Virus record (IMG/VR): IMGVR_UViG_3300043788_000036
Span: 1-61,976 of that record
DNA from: a virus
DNA: 61,976 bases
Strand: one strand, 5' to 3'
Below the pieces are notes generated by a model. It was not told the DNA's origin and searched no databases. It saw only the letters and a program-made list of their open reading frames with translations. Made by a program: the position numbers and the translations under genes. Below, in pieces: positions 26,864 through 48,194 of this stretch. The stretch's first letter is position 1. Each line of letters starts with the position of its first letter.

Positions 26864-28324
26864 CTACGCCTGAACTAGCTTTCGCACGTCGCTAAGAGTT
26901 GTACGACGTACGAAGTGCCCGTCTACCCAGACGGTCTTATAGAGGTTTTCTCTGCCGTAGCTGTTTTGTTGTCCTTGAGTTAACTGGTCTGTCATCTGTA
27001 AAGTACCGTCCTCTGCGCGCAACACGATGATACGCCCTCTAGCAGACTTCTTTTCCCCTGTATCGGTGACAGGGTTCTTCGAGAGGAAACGCTGTTCGCC
27101 GTTGACTTGCGCCCACGTGGCTTTGATGGCGAATCCGTGCGTGTCGCGGGTTACGTACTGGTACGTGTAGGAGCCTATACCGAACACTACGTTGGTCGAC
27201 GCGAATCCCTTGCGCTTCAATCGTTCACAGATCTCCCGGGCGCGTTGCTCATTGATGGAGTCCCCATAAATCGCTCCTATGTGAGAGTCGAGTACGCGAT
27301 ATGAGTCAGCGTTTACAGTGCCTCCAAACAAGTCCCAGAGCAGTTCAATGACTCCCTTATGCTGCGGTGTACCTTTTGCCCAACGCGGATCTCCACAGAG
27401 GATGTCTACGGGGTCACCGCTGTCTGGGCGTATGACAAGTTTTCCTTCTCGCGCCATGATCTGGTCCTTCAGTCGGGGCAGGGTCTTCGTGAGTACTTTC
27501 CATAAATCCCACGTATCACAGACCACGGATAATATTCCACTCGGGTACAAGTCAAGCAGACGAGCAATGGTGCTCTCCTCGTCCTCCTGGCCTCCCGCGC
27601 ACATCACGGAGTGCTCGGTAGCCGGGACGCTGCCCCCGATGGGTTCTGCGGCGTCGTAATAGCGCTCCAGCAGCTCTATTGCAGGTAGGCAGTCCGTACC
27701 TAGGAAGGAAAGAAGATGAGCCGCTCCAGACAGCGCCGCTGCTCCTGGGCACGCCATTCCGCGAAAGCTGAAATCATGCCCCTGCCAGTCCACAAACGAG
27801 GGGTCACCTCCTGTCTGCTGAGCGTAACTGAGCAGGTCTCGGCGGTACCGTCGGGCAGTCGATGCGGAAGTGCAGGGCATCCAGAGCACGGACGATAATA
27901 GAGTCTCGAAGTAATTGGTGACCCAGAAGAAATCAGGGTGCGTATTCTCGATCGTGAACATGGGCACTCTAAGCGGTACTGCAGTACCTTCCGGTAGGGC
28001 GCAGAAGCGCAATGGGATATAGCCCAGGTTGTGCAGCTCCGCGATGTGCTCTGTACCGATATCGTTCGGGCCGAAGTACGCATTCAGCCGACGTCGGTAC
28101 TTATCGCATACTTCTCCGACCGGGCGGGAAAAGAATGTTTCTTGCGCATGCTCCATAAGATATCGCTGCAGGAAGTACTGCAACCCAAAAAACGTGACCG
28201 GCTGGCCCTGTGCTACGCGAGTTGATCGTGCAGTAAAGTTGGAGTAAACGTACTGCGTACCCGCAGGGTACTGGCGCCGATGGTCCAGCTTATACCCGTC
28301 CGTCAACGTAATAAAATCAAACAT
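26864..28324 (-). CDS. NAMPT-like nicotinamide phosphoribosyltransferase (possible Namat of NARP1)
   Basis: 486 residues, the normal NAMPT length. Motifs in order: YKLDHRRQYPAGTQYVYSNF at the N terminus, VDWQGHDFSFRGM, LGTDCLPAIELLERYYDA and the phosphate-binding LVIRPDSGDPVD. Standard NAMPT joins nicotinamide to PRPP to make NMN. In the NARP1 pathway the homologue Namat instead joins nicotinamide to ADPR-pyrophosphate to give NAD+ directly. The neighbouring Prs-like gene overlaps it by 8 nt and no NMN adenylyltransferase was seen, which favours NARP1 over ordinary NMN salvage. Substrate choice cannot be read from sequence by eye. Confidence 0.9.
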   Translation of the reverse strand: MFDFITLTDGYKLDHRRQYPAGTQYVYSNFTARSTRVAQGQPVTFFGLQYFLQRYLMEHAQETFFSRPVGEVCDKYRRRLNAYFGPNDIGTEHIAELHNLGYIPLRFCALPEGTAVPLRVPMFTIENTHPDFFWVTNYFETLLSSVLWMPCTSASTARRYRRDLLSYAQQTGGDPSFVDWQGHDFSFRGMACPGAAALSGAAHLLSFLGTDCLPAIELLERYYDAAEPIGGSVPATEHSVMCAGGQEDEESTIARLLDLYPSGILSVVCDTWDLWKVLTKTLPRLKDQIMAREGKLVIRPDSGDPVDILCGDPRWAKGTPQHKGVIELLWDLFGGTVNADSYRVLDSHIGAIYGDSINEQRAREICERLKRKGFASTNVVFGIGSYTYQYVTRDTHGFAIKATWAQVNGEQRFLSKNPVTDTGEKKSARGRIIVLRAEDGTLQMTDQLTQGQQNSYGRENLYKTVWVDGHFVRRTTLSDVRKLVQA

Positions 28325-29156
28325 TATGATTTCCTCCTATTTTTGCGAACAACGCAGGTAGTAGGGGGTACACAGTAAAGCGATAATTTTGCCAATTCGG
28401 CGTCAACCTATACCAACTATCTGTAGTGATAATGCGCGAGTAGGTGTCTGATATAGCCTCAAGACCTTTCGAGAAAATACCGTGCGACACAAATAACTGC
28501 AGCTCCGACTCTTGTGCGTAGTCGTCGTTGTTCCAAGCTTCCGCGAGTAGGTTAAACGTGGCCCCCCCGTCGCAAATGTCGTCTACGACGATGTACTTAC
28601 CTCGCGCAGGCAAGTCTGGCATCTCGTACTCACTAATATAGCCCGTACGCGAATCGCGGTGCTTTAGGCAAGATATGAGATACGCATCGGGGGAGAACTT
28701 TGCTCTGAACTGCTCTGCTCGGCCTACGGCCCCCGCGTCAGGTGCGATGACACCGGCAACGTCCGCCATACCGTCTATTGGCAAGTCCGCAGGCATGAAC
28801 GTTTTGAAGTCTAAGAACGTCTCCAGCGCGCTTGAGTGCGGGTCGAATACCGATACGGGATACGGACCTCCCAGCAACTCCGCCATGATACGGATGGTCA
28901 GGGGCGCAGTACCGTCCGTGCGATCTTGGCGAGCGCCGGGAAAGTAAGGGCAGAATACCGTGAAGTCGGCGCGTTGTGCTTGTAGAGCGCTAATGACACA
29001 TGCAGCTATGCCCACATCATTCCACGTGCGGGGCTTAAGGTGGAATAGTACGCTGCCGACAAACTTAGGTAGTTTCGCGTGTGGCTCACCCCCAGGGAAG
29101 AACAACGTCTCAATGCCCGACGCGGTGTAATTATCGCTATCAATTATTGTCGTCAC
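28317..29156 (-). CDS. Prs-like phosphoribosylpyrophosphate synthetase (possible Adps of NARP1)
   Basis: 279 residues, slightly short for a Prs protein. Shows CPYFPGARQDRTDG (ribose-5-phosphate/ATP loop), DPHSSALETFLD, VIAPDAGAVGRAEQF and the PRPP-loop KYIVVDDICDGGATFN. Prs makes PRPP from ribose-5-phosphate and ATP; in NARP1 the Adps homologue pyrophosphorylates ADP-ribose using ATP. Directly coupled to the NAMPT-like gene. Together they would rebuild NAD+ after host TIR, Sir2 or other NADase immunity splits it. Chemistry not established here. Confidence 0.88.
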   Translation of the reverse strand: MTTIIDSDNYTASGIETLFFPGGEPHAKLPKFVGSVLFHLKPRTWNDVGIAACVISALQAQRADFTVFCPYFPGARQDRTDGTAPLTIRIMAELLGGPYPVSVFDPHSSALETFLDFKTFMPADLPIDGMADVAGVIAPDAGAVGRAEQFRAKFSPDAYLISCLKHRDSRTGYISEYEMPDLPARGKYIVVDDICDGGATFNLLAEAWNNDDYAQESELQLFVSHGIFSKGLEAISDTYSRIITTDSWYRLTPNWQNYRFTVYPLLPALFAKIGGNHNV

Positions 29157-38995: not shown

Positions 38996-39174
38996 AAAAA
39001 TGCGCTATACATAAACGCCCGTTAGGTCAAGGGGGGTGTAAAGCGTGTTTGAAAAGATGGTTTACACGTTATCGGGTCAAGGACAGCCCGTTGCGGGTGT
39101 CGGACGAGGAAGCCTCTCGCCAGTTATTGCTTTGGCTGCGCTCCCGTGGCTTGTTCACTAACTGGGTAGTTTGA
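38992..39174 (+). CDS. Small Cys-containing early protein
   Basis: 60 residues. KKCAIHKRPLGQGGCKACLK has three Cys and one His at zinc-finger spacing, then a helical end (ASRQLLLWLRSRGLF). It is the last gene before the double hairpin region. No known family. Confidence 0.5.
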   Translation: MKKCAIHKRPLGQGGCKACLKRWFTRYRVKDSPLRVSDEEASRQLLLWLRSRGLFTNWVV

Positions 39175-39206
39175 CACTTCAACCTCGATAGGGAATACTC
39201 CCGTCA

Positions 39207-39232
39207 CGCCCGGTTCGACACTCCCTCGGGCG
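39207..39232 (+). terminator. First hairpin downstream of early operon
   Basis: CGCCCG (39207-39212) pairs with CGGGCG (39227-39232), loop 14 nt. No T-run follows. It may help the stronger terminator 24 nt further on. Confidence 0.4.
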
Positions 39233-39255
39233 CTTCACGTTCGTCCATACGTTCT

Positions 39256-39293
39256 CGCCCGCACTGCCTCAACCCAGCTGCGGGCGTTTTTTT
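39256..39293 (+). terminator. Rho-independent terminator of the rightward early operon
   Basis: CGCCCGCA (39256-39263) pairs perfectly with TGCGGGCG (39279-39286), with a 15-nt loop, followed by seven T (39287-39293). This has all parts of an intrinsic terminator. TATACT (39295-39300) follows directly and could be a -10 element for downstream transcription. Confidence 0.8.
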
Positions 39294-39306
39294 GTATACT
39301 GTCTTT

Positions 39307-39392
39307 GGCGGAGGTCGCCGGTTCGAATCCGGCCGCTGCGAGGGTTAGCCCATGCACAGCGTAGCTCAGCAGGGAGAGCATCGCTTCTTCGC
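39307..39392 (+). tRNA. Circularly permuted tRNA-like element (3' half before 5' half)
   Basis: Upstream half: anticodon-stem strand GGCGG (39307-39311), variable loop AGGTC (39312-39316), T-arm GCCGG-TTCGAAT-CCGGC (39317-39333), acceptor strand CGCTGCG (39334-39340), discriminator A (39341). After 13 nt comes the other half: acceptor strand CACAGCG (39355-39361), TA, D-arm GCTC-AGCAGGGA-GAGC (39364-39379), A, and anticodon-stem strand TCGCT (39381-39385). The two acceptor strands pair at 6 of 7 positions (one A-C mismatch at 2-71). The anticodon stems pair at 5 of 5 with two G-U. The anticodon cannot be read: position 33 would be C, and the loop join is unknown. No normally ordered tRNA can be made here. 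It may be a processed permuted tRNA, a decoy, or captured tandem host tRNA ends. Confidence 0.45.
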
Positions 39393-39453
39393 CATATTTG
39401 CAAAAGCTTGAGCTTCTGGTACCTTCCGGCACGTTTGACGTGAGACGAACGCA

Positions 39454-40059
39454 TTGCCCGCACGTAAGGTCAAGAGGCTCAAACGAGGTCCCACCAAGGT
39501 AACGCGCAAAAAACCACCCAAAAGCGACGGTAAGCCCGTACAGGACACCCCGCCGAAGCGCCCGACGCAGTACACCCCCCAATTGGGTGAACGCCTCCTG
39601 GAGCGCATGGCGAACGGCGTGACCGCTACGGAAATATGTCGCGACCCGACTATGCCCACCTGGGGTGTGCTCAAGCGGTGGGAGCGTGACTACCCGGACT
39701 TTGGACGGCGCTATGAGACTGCGCGTAGGCAATGCTGCGAGTACATGACGGATGAGATCATCACGATTGCGGACAACGCAGCGAATGATTACATCCAGCG
39801 ATCGACGGGCGGCTTAGTCTTCAACCGCGAAGGCTTTGAGCGCTCACGGCTGCGTATTGACTCGCGCAAGTGGACCGCTAGCAAAGTACTACGTCACGTG
39901 TATGGCGATAAGAGCGAGGTTGACTTGCGCACGCCTGATGGGCTCAACGTGAAGGTGGAAGAGCGCAATGCGCTCATCGATGCGCTGTGTAAGTTAGTGC
40001 AGCCTAAGGTGGACGGTAAGACGAAACCCGACGTGGAGGACGAGACGCGTGAACGTTGA
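39454..40059 (+). CDS. Terminase small subunit
   Basis: 201 residues from a TTG at 39454. A basic N-terminal extension (PARKVKRLKRGPTKVTRKKP) precedes the HTH-like LLERMANGVTATEICRDPTM and the classical TerS block YPDFGRRYETARRQCCEYMT, followed by RSRLRIDSRKWTASKVLRHV and YGDKSEVDL. TerS rings bind the packaging site and start DNA cutting with TerL. First gene of the late operon. Unusually it is separated from TerL by about 5.4 kb. Confidence 0.88.
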   Translation: MPARKVKRLKRGPTKVTRKKPPKSDGKPVQDTPPKRPTQYTPQLGERLLERMANGVTATEICRDPTMPTWGVLKRWERDYPDFGRRYETARRQCCEYMTDEIITIADNAANDYIQRSTGGLVFNREGFERSRLRIDSRKWTASKVLRHVYGDKSEVDLRTPDGLNVKVEERNALIDALCKLVQPKVDGKTKPDVEDETRER

Positions 40060-45470: not shown

Positions 45471-48194
45471 ATGGCGGCGGCTGAACCCCTCGACTTAGAG
45501 AACCCGCGGCGACTACGTGAAACCCTTGAGAGGTTCTCGGACGATGACTTAGAGCTACTGACAGCTCGACTGCGCTGGCGCGCTATTGCACGTAAAAAGC
45601 AGTTGCCGCCTGACAACAATAAATGGGATTTCTTCGGTATTAAGTCGGGCCGCGGGTTTGGGAAAACGGTCTCGGGCGCTCGATGGCTTGCAGATGCGGC
45701 CTTGGTAGACCCGGGCTCTTACAACTTCGTAATAGCCCCGACGCACGAAGACTTGGTTACCACGTGCTTTTACGGCCCGACAGGGCTTCATGGAGCGTAT
45801 GAAGACAAGGCCGGCTTGATCGGCCCCCCGGGCAGGCAGTACCCGATACTCCCAAAGAAGCTCATCAAGGATTCGACCAAATCTCCCCCGGTTATCACGT
45901 TAACCAATAGCGCTATCATTAGGGGATTCTCTGCGGATACTCCGGAGCGCCTGCGCGGGCCGCAGTGTCACCGTGGTTGGTTAGATGAAGTTGCAAGTTG
46001 GAGGTTCGCTGAGAAAGCGTTTGATAATTTCGTGTTTGGGTTACGGCTAGGTAAACACCCACAGGTGTTTTGGACAGGGACGCCTAAGCCAAAACCCTTT
46101 ATCAAAATGCTGATGAGCCTGCCGCGCTCCATCACGATATCTGGCTCCACGTACGAGAACGCGGAAAACTTGTCGGACATATTCTACGATAATATCGCTA
46201 AATACGAGGGAACACGAATTGGCCGGCAGGAGATATACGGGGAGATTATCGACCCCGAAGAAGCCGGTTTCGTTAAGCGGTCTGATATCCGCTTATGGCC
46301 AGCAGGTAAGCCGCTCCCGAAGTTTCGCTTTGTTGTAATGTCTCTCGATACCGCGTTCACGGAAGAAACGTGGAACAAAAAGGAGCAAACAGGTGATCCA
46401 ACCGCGTGCACCGTATGGGGCTTGTTCGAATACGAGCGGCGGGAGCACGTGATGTTACTCCATGCTTGGGAACAGTACTTAGGCTTCCCCGCACTTGTCC
46501 GACAAGTGAAATATGAATATACGATGCGCTATGGGGATCAAGATGAGCCCCTGCTCAGGCCAGCTTTGATCTCTAAAGACCGTCGTCCCGCGCGTACTGG
46601 GCGGGCGATAGACCATCTCCTAATTGAAGATACCGGTTCTGGGAAGTCGCTCATCCAAGTGCTTGCGGAAGAGGGGGTCTTCGCTGAGCGGTTCCCAACC
46701 GACATGGACAAGCTCTCTAAGCTCCATGCAGCGTCTCCCATGTTCGCCCATGGGCGGGTATGGACTCCTGAGAGTAAGGTCACTCCTGGGCACCCTAGGC
46801 CCTGGGCGGAGAAGGTCATTAGCCAGCTCTGCTGCTACGTCGGAGAAGGGTCCTTGGCGCATGACGACCTTTTAGATACTTGCGTGACGGCTGAGACGTG
46901 CATCTTAACGCCTACAGGGCCACGAGCTATCTCAACAATCCAGGTAGGTGACTTGGTGCTCACGCACAAAGGCAGGTGGCGTCCGGTCACTAAGACAATG
47001 CAGCGTATTTCACCTCATGTGTACCGTTTCAAAGCGAAGACCTTGGATGAAATCTCGATTACCGGAAACCACCCCGCGTGGGTAAGTAGTATACGATACC
47101 AAGACGCGGCGTACCGAGAAGCGGGTGAGCCACATTTCAAGCCGATTGCTGAAATACGCCCGCGCTCTATGTACATCTTAAACCGCAACGGTAAAGGGGT
47201 ACAGTGTCCGATGTCTTCAAAACACGATGCGATTATGCTGCCTCGCTATGTACCGGAAGCAGTGCGGGTGTCTATCGATGTGTTGCAGTTTTGTCCCCGT
47301 CCTGATCTACAGGTATCAGATAGTGTAGTTAGATTGGAGCATAGCAGGGCTAAGGAAGTCTTTCGTCACATACCGCTTACCTCGGAGACGGGGTTCGTGT
47401 TCGGATTGTTTATGGCTGAGGGTTGCGTAACTAGTCGGCGAGGCGTGAAAAACTCCATCAATTGGGCATGTGACGAGGCGGCTATAAAAACATGCGCGAG
47501 AGTACTCAAGGGGCAGTTCGGGGTACGGGATGTATTGATTAGTAATGAGGATACCCACTGGCGCGCTAACGTGGGTAGTGTGCCGCTAGCTGCGGTGTTT
47601 GAGACACTTGGATACCTGGCAGAGAACAAAGCCGTGCCGGGGTGGGTGTACGACGCGCCGGAAGATTTTGTGCGCGGATTCATTGAAGGTTATGCCCACG
47701 GTGACGGGCATGTTACGAAAAGCACTCAGACTACCTCAATTACATCTACTTCCTGGGTAGCTCTTTGGGGGGTGCGAGTGTTGCTTACTAGGTTAGGGAT
47801 TTCTGCGTACATTAACCTTTCCAAATCGGCAGGTGTGCGAACAATAAACGGTAAGACGTCTCAGTGCTTGGACGCTTGGGTACTCAGCTATCAAGCTACC
47901 CCTCGCTATGCAGGTACAGCGTGCTGGCGTCCGGAAGGTGCGGCTTATTGGGTTGAGAAGAATGAGAGGGTAGAGGGCGGGTTCAGGGGTTTTGACGTCT
48001 ATAACCTTTCGGTCGAAGAAGACGAAAGCTACGTTACGACTGGCGGAACGGTGCACAATTGCACCCAAGCTTTGCTATTTTTCATGCGAAAGTACAAAAT
48101 CAGCTTGACAGTACGACAAGACCCGGTTAAGGCGATCATAGCCGCATCGGAACGGCTGAAACAACAACGGCGGAGTAACCCTTATGACGGGTAA
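45471..48194 (+). CDS. Terminase large subunit with an in-frame intein
   Basis: 907 residues including a 393-residue intein (residues 471-863), so the spliced TerL would be 514 residues, a normal size. ATPase: SGRGFGKTVSGARW (Walker A) and HRGWLDEVASWR (Walker B). Nuclease: VVMSLDTAFTEE (first Asp), LIEDTGSGKSLIQVLAE (second acidic part) and AHDDLLDT-CTQALLFF, the final motif, into which the intein is inserted. TerL powers headful-type packaging and cuts concatemers. Splicing is therefore essential to restore the nuclease site. Confidence 0.93.
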   Translation: MAAAEPLDLENPRRLRETLERFSDDDLELLTARLRWRAIARKKQLPPDNNKWDFFGIKSGRGFGKTVSGARWLADAALVDPGSYNFVIAPTHEDLVTTCFYGPTGLHGAYEDKAGLIGPPGRQYPILPKKLIKDSTKSPPVITLTNSAIIRGFSADTPERLRGPQCHRGWLDEVASWRFAEKAFDNFVFGLRLGKHPQVFWTGTPKPKPFIKMLMSLPRSITISGSTYENAENLSDIFYDNIAKYEGTRIGRQEIYGEIIDPEEAGFVKRSDIRLWPAGKPLPKFRFVVMSLDTAFTEETWNKKEQTGDPTACTVWGLFEYERREHVMLLHAWEQYLGFPALVRQVKYEYTMRYGDQDEPLLRPALISKDRRPARTGRAIDHLLIEDTGSGKSLIQVLAEEGVFAERFPTDMDKLSKLHAASPMFAHGRVWTPESKVTPGHPRPWAEKVISQLCCYVGEGSLAHDDLLDTCVTAETCILTPTGPRAISTIQVGDLVLTHKGRWRPVTKTMQRISPHVYRFKAKTLDEISITGNHPAWVSSIRYQDAAYREAGEPHFKPIAEIRPRSMYILNRNGKGVQCPMSSKHDAIMLPRYVPEAVRVSIDVLQFCPRPDLQVSDSVVRLEHSRAKEVFRHIPLTSETGFVFGLFMAEGCVTSRRGVKNSINWACDEAAIKTCARVLKGQFGVRDVLISNEDTHWRANVGSVPLAAVFETLGYLAENKAVPGWVYDAPEDFVRGFIEGYAHGDGHVTKSTQTTSITSTSWVALWGVRVLLTRLGISAYINLSKSAGVRTINGKTSQCLDAWVLSYQATPRYAGTACWRPEGAAYWVEKNERVEGGFRGFDVYNLSVEEDESYVTTGGTVHNCTQALLFFMRKYKISLTVRQDPVKAIIAASERLKQQRRSNPYDG
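46881..48059 (+). mobile_element. LAGLIDADG intein in TerL
   Basis: Starts at Cys1 (CVTAETCILTPTG, block A), has block B SITGNHPAWVSS, two LAGLIDADG-type helices (GFVFGLFMAEGCV and FVRGFIEGYAHGDGHV), block F VYNLSVEEDESYV and ends GTVHN with Cys as the next residue. 393 codons, all splice residues present. The homing nuclease looks intact, so it may still spread to inteinless TerL alleles. The insertion is inside the catalytic nuclease motif, where selection would resist deletion. Confidence 0.92.

Follow-up and report, generated by a model that had tools for sequence, protein, structure and literature searches.

A circularly permuted tRNA-like element upstream of a phage terminase gene resembles the tRNA-mimicking domain of bacterial Y RNAs

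The window analyzed here, a 61,976-base virus record from IMG/VR, carries the two halves of a tRNA in permuted order shortly upstream of the gene for the terminase small subunit (TerS), which raises the question whether this locus is a tRNA gene, another structured RNA or a remnant. By direct reading, the 3′ half is set before its own 5′ half at positions 39307-39385 of the plus strand, and a 14-nt linker joins both. The sequence-only reading had claimed this order, with T-arm and acceptor strand preceding D-arm and acceptor strand, as well as a perfect T-arm, six of seven acceptor pairs and five of five pairs in the anticodon stem (AC stem), two of them G-U. All pieces and pairings were confirmed on re-reading, and the halves are indeed separated, the distance of 13 nt becoming 14 nt when the discriminator A is included. 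The parts of the element are:

39307-39340, plus strand: tRNA-like 3′ half, first in order (AC-stem 3′ strand, variable loop, T-arm, acceptor 3′ strand)
39307-39311: AC-stem 3′ strand GGCGG
39312-39316: variable loop AGGTC
39317-39333: T-arm GCCGG-TTCGAAT-CCGGC, 5/5 pairs
39334-39340: acceptor 3′ strand CGCTGCG
39341-39354, plus strand: linker AGGGTTAGCCCATG, 14 nt including the discriminator A, capping the acceptor stem
39355-39385, plus strand: tRNA-like 5′ half, second in order (acceptor 5′ strand, U8-A9, D-arm, AC-stem 5′ strand)
39355-39361: acceptor 5′ strand CACAGCG, 6/7 pairs, one A-C
39362-39363: TA (U8-A9)
39364-39379: D-arm GCTC-AGCAGGGA-GAGC
39380: single A after the D-arm
39381-39385: AC-stem 5′ strand TCGCT, 5/5 pairs with GGCGG including two U-G

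A normal tRNA was detected in this region neither by ARAGORN nor by Rfam at gathering level. When the halves of the window element and of its counterparts in two related records, L002 and L006, were re-ordered to 5′ half, loop and 3′ half, ARAGORN accepted a whole tRNA with every loop tried, which argues that the arms are sound. The anticodon reported in these cases was set by the assumed joint alone. Inspection of the window, L002 and L006 revealed no joining of the halves that yields U33 together with purine 37, the window element has no encoded CCA, and the flanks of the window and L006 have no splice structure in common. Because no anticodon loop is restored, these results argue against a spliced tRNA; for these three reasons, the proposals of a 'real permuted tRNA' and of an 'anticodon-split tRNA' are not supported. 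A pattern consisting of the T-loop, 20-36 nt and TAGCTCAG occurred once in the window and in none of 100 shuffles. The plain RNA fold of the L002 module was a cloverleaf, and that of the window module was not. Folding energies did not separate the element from shuffles, the window module being no more stable than these.

The element lies behind the last early open reading frame (ORF; end at 39174) and a terminator-like hairpin, 69 nt upstream of the TerS gene, with no clear terminator between the two. The relevant features of this region are:

39261-39293, plus strand: hairpin GCCCGC...GCGGGC with a T-run, resembling a terminator and immediately preceding the element, found by eye and not among the output of the hairpin scan, which was limited to loops of ≤ 8 nt
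39289-39409, plus strand: full-length match to Rfam YrlA (RF02553), 32.0 bits, E = 2.3e-5
39295-39300, plus strand: TATACT, a -10-like hexamer without recognizable -35 region, which would place the RNA start at about 39307
39454-40059, plus strand: TerS (phrog_1482), the downstream neighbor, which served to find relatives

TATACT had been claimed as a promoter box of the element; the hexamer is present at the given place, but no -35 hexamer accompanies it. The sole sigma70-like pair nearby is the near-consensus TTGACA-17-AATACT at 39171-39199 (AATAAT in L002), which immediately follows the last early ORF. A promoter-like TTGAAA-17-TAGGAT in L006 puts the putative RNA start at or near the beginning of the module. 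Such a start would leave no 5′ strand for a basal stem, and the TATACT of the window would do likewise.

Several further observations were made at and around this locus. Positions 39171-39293, with a promoter, a hairpin and then the terminator-like hairpin with T-run, have the appearance of a small RNA gene of their own, about 88 nt long. A motif TGGTACC(T/C)TC was seen by eye 20-60 nt upstream of the TerS gene in the window (about 39418-39430) and in L003, L006, L007, L009 and L264, i.e., with and without the element, and is possibly a late promoter or a packaging site. The large terminase subunit (TerL) of the window is 48% identical to that of the Caulobacter phages GB2A, RLK, KcrB and RW. 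In its ORF (45471-48194, 907 aa), residues ~17-479 match TerL and residues ~470-866 match phage ORFs annotated as methylases; an intein is probably inserted there. In phage GB2A (L004:5329-5402), an annotated tRNA-Val was not detected by ARAGORN. Two adjacent ORFs at 26864-29156 on the minus strand of the window resemble, by eye, nicotinamide phosphoribosyltransferase and ribose-phosphate pyrophosphokinase of NAD salvage.

To see how far the element extends beyond the window, we turned to relatives of its TerS. The two IMG/VR relatives L002 and L006 have the element at the same place upstream of the TerS gene. L002, whose TerS is 99% identical to that of the window, has CCGCC instead of UCGCU in the AC stem; both changes exchange U-G for C-G and leave the pairing intact. 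It retains the GGG/CCC mini-hairpin that is possible in the linker AGGGTTAGCCCATG of the window, and differs also in the linker loop, in the length of the D-loop and in one acceptor end pair, so that two acceptor mismatches face the single one of the window. L006, with only 57% identity in TerS, shares both site and layout; its linker is 8 nt long, and its acceptor stem, though of other sequence, is paired 7/7. Its AC stem is paired 5/5, its T-stem 4/5, its D-stem contains one G-U, and the D- and T-loops are intact; about 390 nt and a terminator-like hairpin lie between the element and the TerS gene. Neither half was found upstream of the TerS gene in L003, L007/L262, L009/L011 and L264. The element is therefore common to diverged members of the group, yet scattered. 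Relatives with only one half, named by the sequence-only reading as a sign of a chance match or attachment-site remnant, were not seen, since the carriers have both halves and the other lineages neither.

Beyond this group, the junction was absent among distant TerS relatives (29-41%), and the TerS relatives in prokaryote genomes were all distant. An exact 22-mer search of IMG/VR gave no match, and DNA similarity of the element to phages and plasmids was restricted to partial matches ~30-40 bases long, which often fell on ordinary tRNA genes.

The topology itself is already known: it is that of the bacterial Y RNA YrlA, which is commonly carried by phages with Ro genes. The score of 32.0 bits for the window does not reach the Rfam gathering score of 69 bits, and L006 matched with 20.1 bits over the module only. 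In a permissive-threshold Rfam search, the phage junction elements tested also matched YrlA. Modules of this kind in the Mycobacterium phages Sparky and Ava3 and in the Gordonia phage Cashline, which lie at most a few hundred bases before annotated genes for Ro-like RNA-binding proteins, scored 36-42 bits, likewise below the cut-off. A permuted tRNA of any sort would match the YrlA module in part. What distinguishes the two is therefore the missing anticodon loop and not the score by itself.

At least 340 phage records encode a Ro (TROVE) protein. TROVE (Ro60) genes were present in 20 of 47 records with junctions and in 5 of 39 controls (p = 0.004), many of the records being fragments. Within the phage records, no TROVE gene was found in the window, L002 or L006, and a Ro protein of the host is possible. 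In many of the Y-type phage RNAs that are linked to Ro, GGTTAYC or TACTTC lies beside the helix formed by the RNA ends, and neither motif occurs within 1 kb of the window element. In the YrlA alignment of the window, an outer UUUUG/CAAAA is possible, the pairs of the inner stem are mostly non-standard, and the flanks pair no better than shuffles, in a weak test that several Ro-linked controls fail likewise. A Ro-binding basal stem is thus not supported for the window version, which would depart from YrlA at this point.

According to published work, DusA and TruB modify the tRNA-like domain of YrlA, and this domain also binds PNPase (PMC8394870). YrlA was not a substrate of an anticodon nuclease and has been proposed to be a competitive inhibitor of that nuclease (PMC7790460). 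Phages with YrlA are mentioned in a further article, which cites a review (PMC7765460).

Pattern scans of IMG/VR, filtered against complete tRNAs, placed the element in a wider context. One scan was complete and gave 51 matches, and for the others the matches listed were used; as the sample was chosen by pattern, it is uninformative on frequency. At least about 60 such junctions were found in IMG/VR phages, which overtakes the statement of the sequence-only reading that a phage example was not known; a literature search gave no paper on permuted tRNA genes of phages. Among the matches listed, 90% of the acceptor positions are paired where neither half belongs to a complete tRNA, compared to 48% for tandem tRNAs and 47% after the 3′ strands were re-dealt. 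Six to seven acceptor pairs were present in 57 of the 67 listed junctions outside complete tRNAs, but in only 27 of 334 (8%) between two complete phage tRNAs (p = 9e-38), where cross-pairing centers on 3-4 of 7. The acceptor pairing thus indicates that permuted tRNA-like genes are common in phages.

In 29 of 63 phage Y-type elements (shuffles: mean 2, maximum 8), the anticodon arm was complete, having U33, purine 37 and a normal anticodon such as UGG, GUU, UGU, UUU or GCU, and the Rfam YrlA consensus has no such arm. In the arm-bearing elements, a Ro-type stem is inserted between positions 28 and 29. These elements include:

IMG/VR loci L026, L033, L083, L105, L145, L266, L268, L295, L296 and others
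Sparky, L334:2659
Ava3, L335:2736

As an observation apart, the phage contigs L119 (~2094) and L131 (~5250), read on the strand of the element, have a permuted element in common, with similar flanks and a similar, structured-looking upstream stretch.

These observations establish the permuted topology, the fact that it recurs at one site in a diverged relative with compensating changes, and the resemblance to the YrlA family, with a match close to that of the Ro-adjacent RNAs of named phages. They are probably best explained by a tRNA mimic of the YrlA type that would act as a decoy or tether. It would be a small structured RNA in which D-arm, T-arm and acceptor stem present the tRNA elbow in circular permutation; a loop would cap the acceptor stem, and the two RNA ends would exit via the anticodon stem. 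Provided that the RNA is made and adopts a tRNA-like fold, as we infer, it could be neither charged nor cut at the anticodon, since a free acceptor end and an anticodon loop are both missing. It might serve as decoy or tether for elbow-recognizing proteins, be it host PNPase, tRNA-modifying enzymes or tRNA-directed nucleases, and its tRNA-like domain would work alone here, without a Ro handle. The 'decoy' among the earlier suggestions comes close to this reading, with a function that is likewise inferred. The full-length YrlA match, the Ro-adjacent phage elements, the excess of TROVE genes in records with junctions, the acceptor and the promoter-like pair of L006, the AC-stem changes of L002 and the lack of a restored anticodon loop in all three records argue for such a mimic; the score below gathering in the window and the still lower, module-only score of L006, the unsupported basal stem, the missing TROVE gene, the plain fold of the window and the relatives without the element argue against it.

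A first rival is a decaying remnant: a Y RNA or permuted tRNA gained by the phage lineage would have lost its function and simply stayed in front of the TerS gene. The absence from L003, L007, L009 and L264, the acceptor mismatches in the window and L002, the lack of a Ro gene and the unsupported basal stem would fit. We nevertheless consider decay unlikely, because the far-diverged L006 retains a fully paired acceptor and AC stem with intact D- and T-loops, and both AC-stem differences between the window and L002 preserve pairing. A further rival is a processing signal, in which RNase P or RNase Z would cut a tRNA-like fold in the terminase leader and thereby define the ends of the mRNA. RNase P recognizes a T-arm that is stacked on an acceptor stem, and the stack of the element fits it, as do the short distance to the TerS gene and the absence of a clear terminator in between. 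In L006, however, a terminator-like hairpin and the longer spacer intervene, and the TGGTACC-type motif, seen by eye before the TerS gene in all relatives including those lacking the element, suggests a separate terminase promoter, which makes such a signal quite improbable.

A true permuted tRNA gene of the sort known from some algae and archaea, with a precursor that is circularized and then trimmed until a working tRNA results, would account for the order of the halves and for their acceptance by ARAGORN after re-ordering. It appears very improbable in view of the missing joint with U33 and purine 37, the missing CCA and the lack of conserved structure in the flanks of the window and L006; moreover, the tRNA splicing endonuclease that serves permuted tRNAs elsewhere is not known as a bacterial enzyme. 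Phages often capture tRNA 3′ ends, which favors a plain capture of tandem host tRNA ends, but together with chance and an attachment-site remnant this deserves hardly any weight: no shuffle matched, adjacent tRNAs seldom pair across the acceptor, an attachment site would be expected to hold one half and not two, and L006 has the same layout. The element is not a product of chance. Captured tandem tRNA ends, another of the earlier suggestions, may hold for its origin; they do not describe its present state, since L006 combines the same layout and site with a different, fully paired acceptor. Two further candidates were rejected: for a self-splicing permuted intron-exon gene, with the flanks of Ro-linked elements read as introns, Rfam gave YrlA and no group I intron, and for a permuted tmRNA, Rfam gave no tmRNA or permuted tmRNA match in the region.

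The element can be set beside known systems. With YrlA, it shares the T-arm, the capped acceptor stem, the D-arm, the permuted order and a closing stem at the position of the anticodon stem; it differs in that a basal stem for Ro binding is not supported, its record has no Ro gene and its score is below gathering. The Y-type RNAs of Sparky, Ava3 and Cashline have the same permuted module but, unlike the element, GGTTAYC beside a pairing basal helix and a Ro-like gene downstream, and several an anticodon arm. In red algae and archaea, circularly permuted tRNA genes likewise have the 3′ half before the 5′ half and a short linker, and yield working tRNAs after splicing, whereas the anticodon loop of the element is not restorable. 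In the permuted tmRNA of alphaproteobacteria, the acceptor ends are also joined by a linker, but the element has a canonical tRNA D-arm.

A more far-reaching idea is that phages use a wide class of tRNA mimics of the Y RNA plan, some free of a Ro handle as here and others equipped with a particular tRNA's complete anticodon arm; they would serve as decoys against anticodon nucleases or against further host defenses that target tRNAs. In the arm-bearing type, the Ro stem might even be excised and the ends sealed to give working tRNAs. We regard this as unlikely at present. As a mere remnant, the element would be nothing unusual. Y RNAs have been studied chiefly as partners of Ro60, and a phage lineage that keeps the tRNA-mimicking part alone, with no Ro gene, would make it possible to ask for the role of the mimic itself. 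A sizeable number of tRNA-like phage genes escape tRNA finders; many of these genes also copy the anticodon arm, and these copies bear on the roles of Y RNAs and Ro in RNA repair and in the conflict between phage and host.
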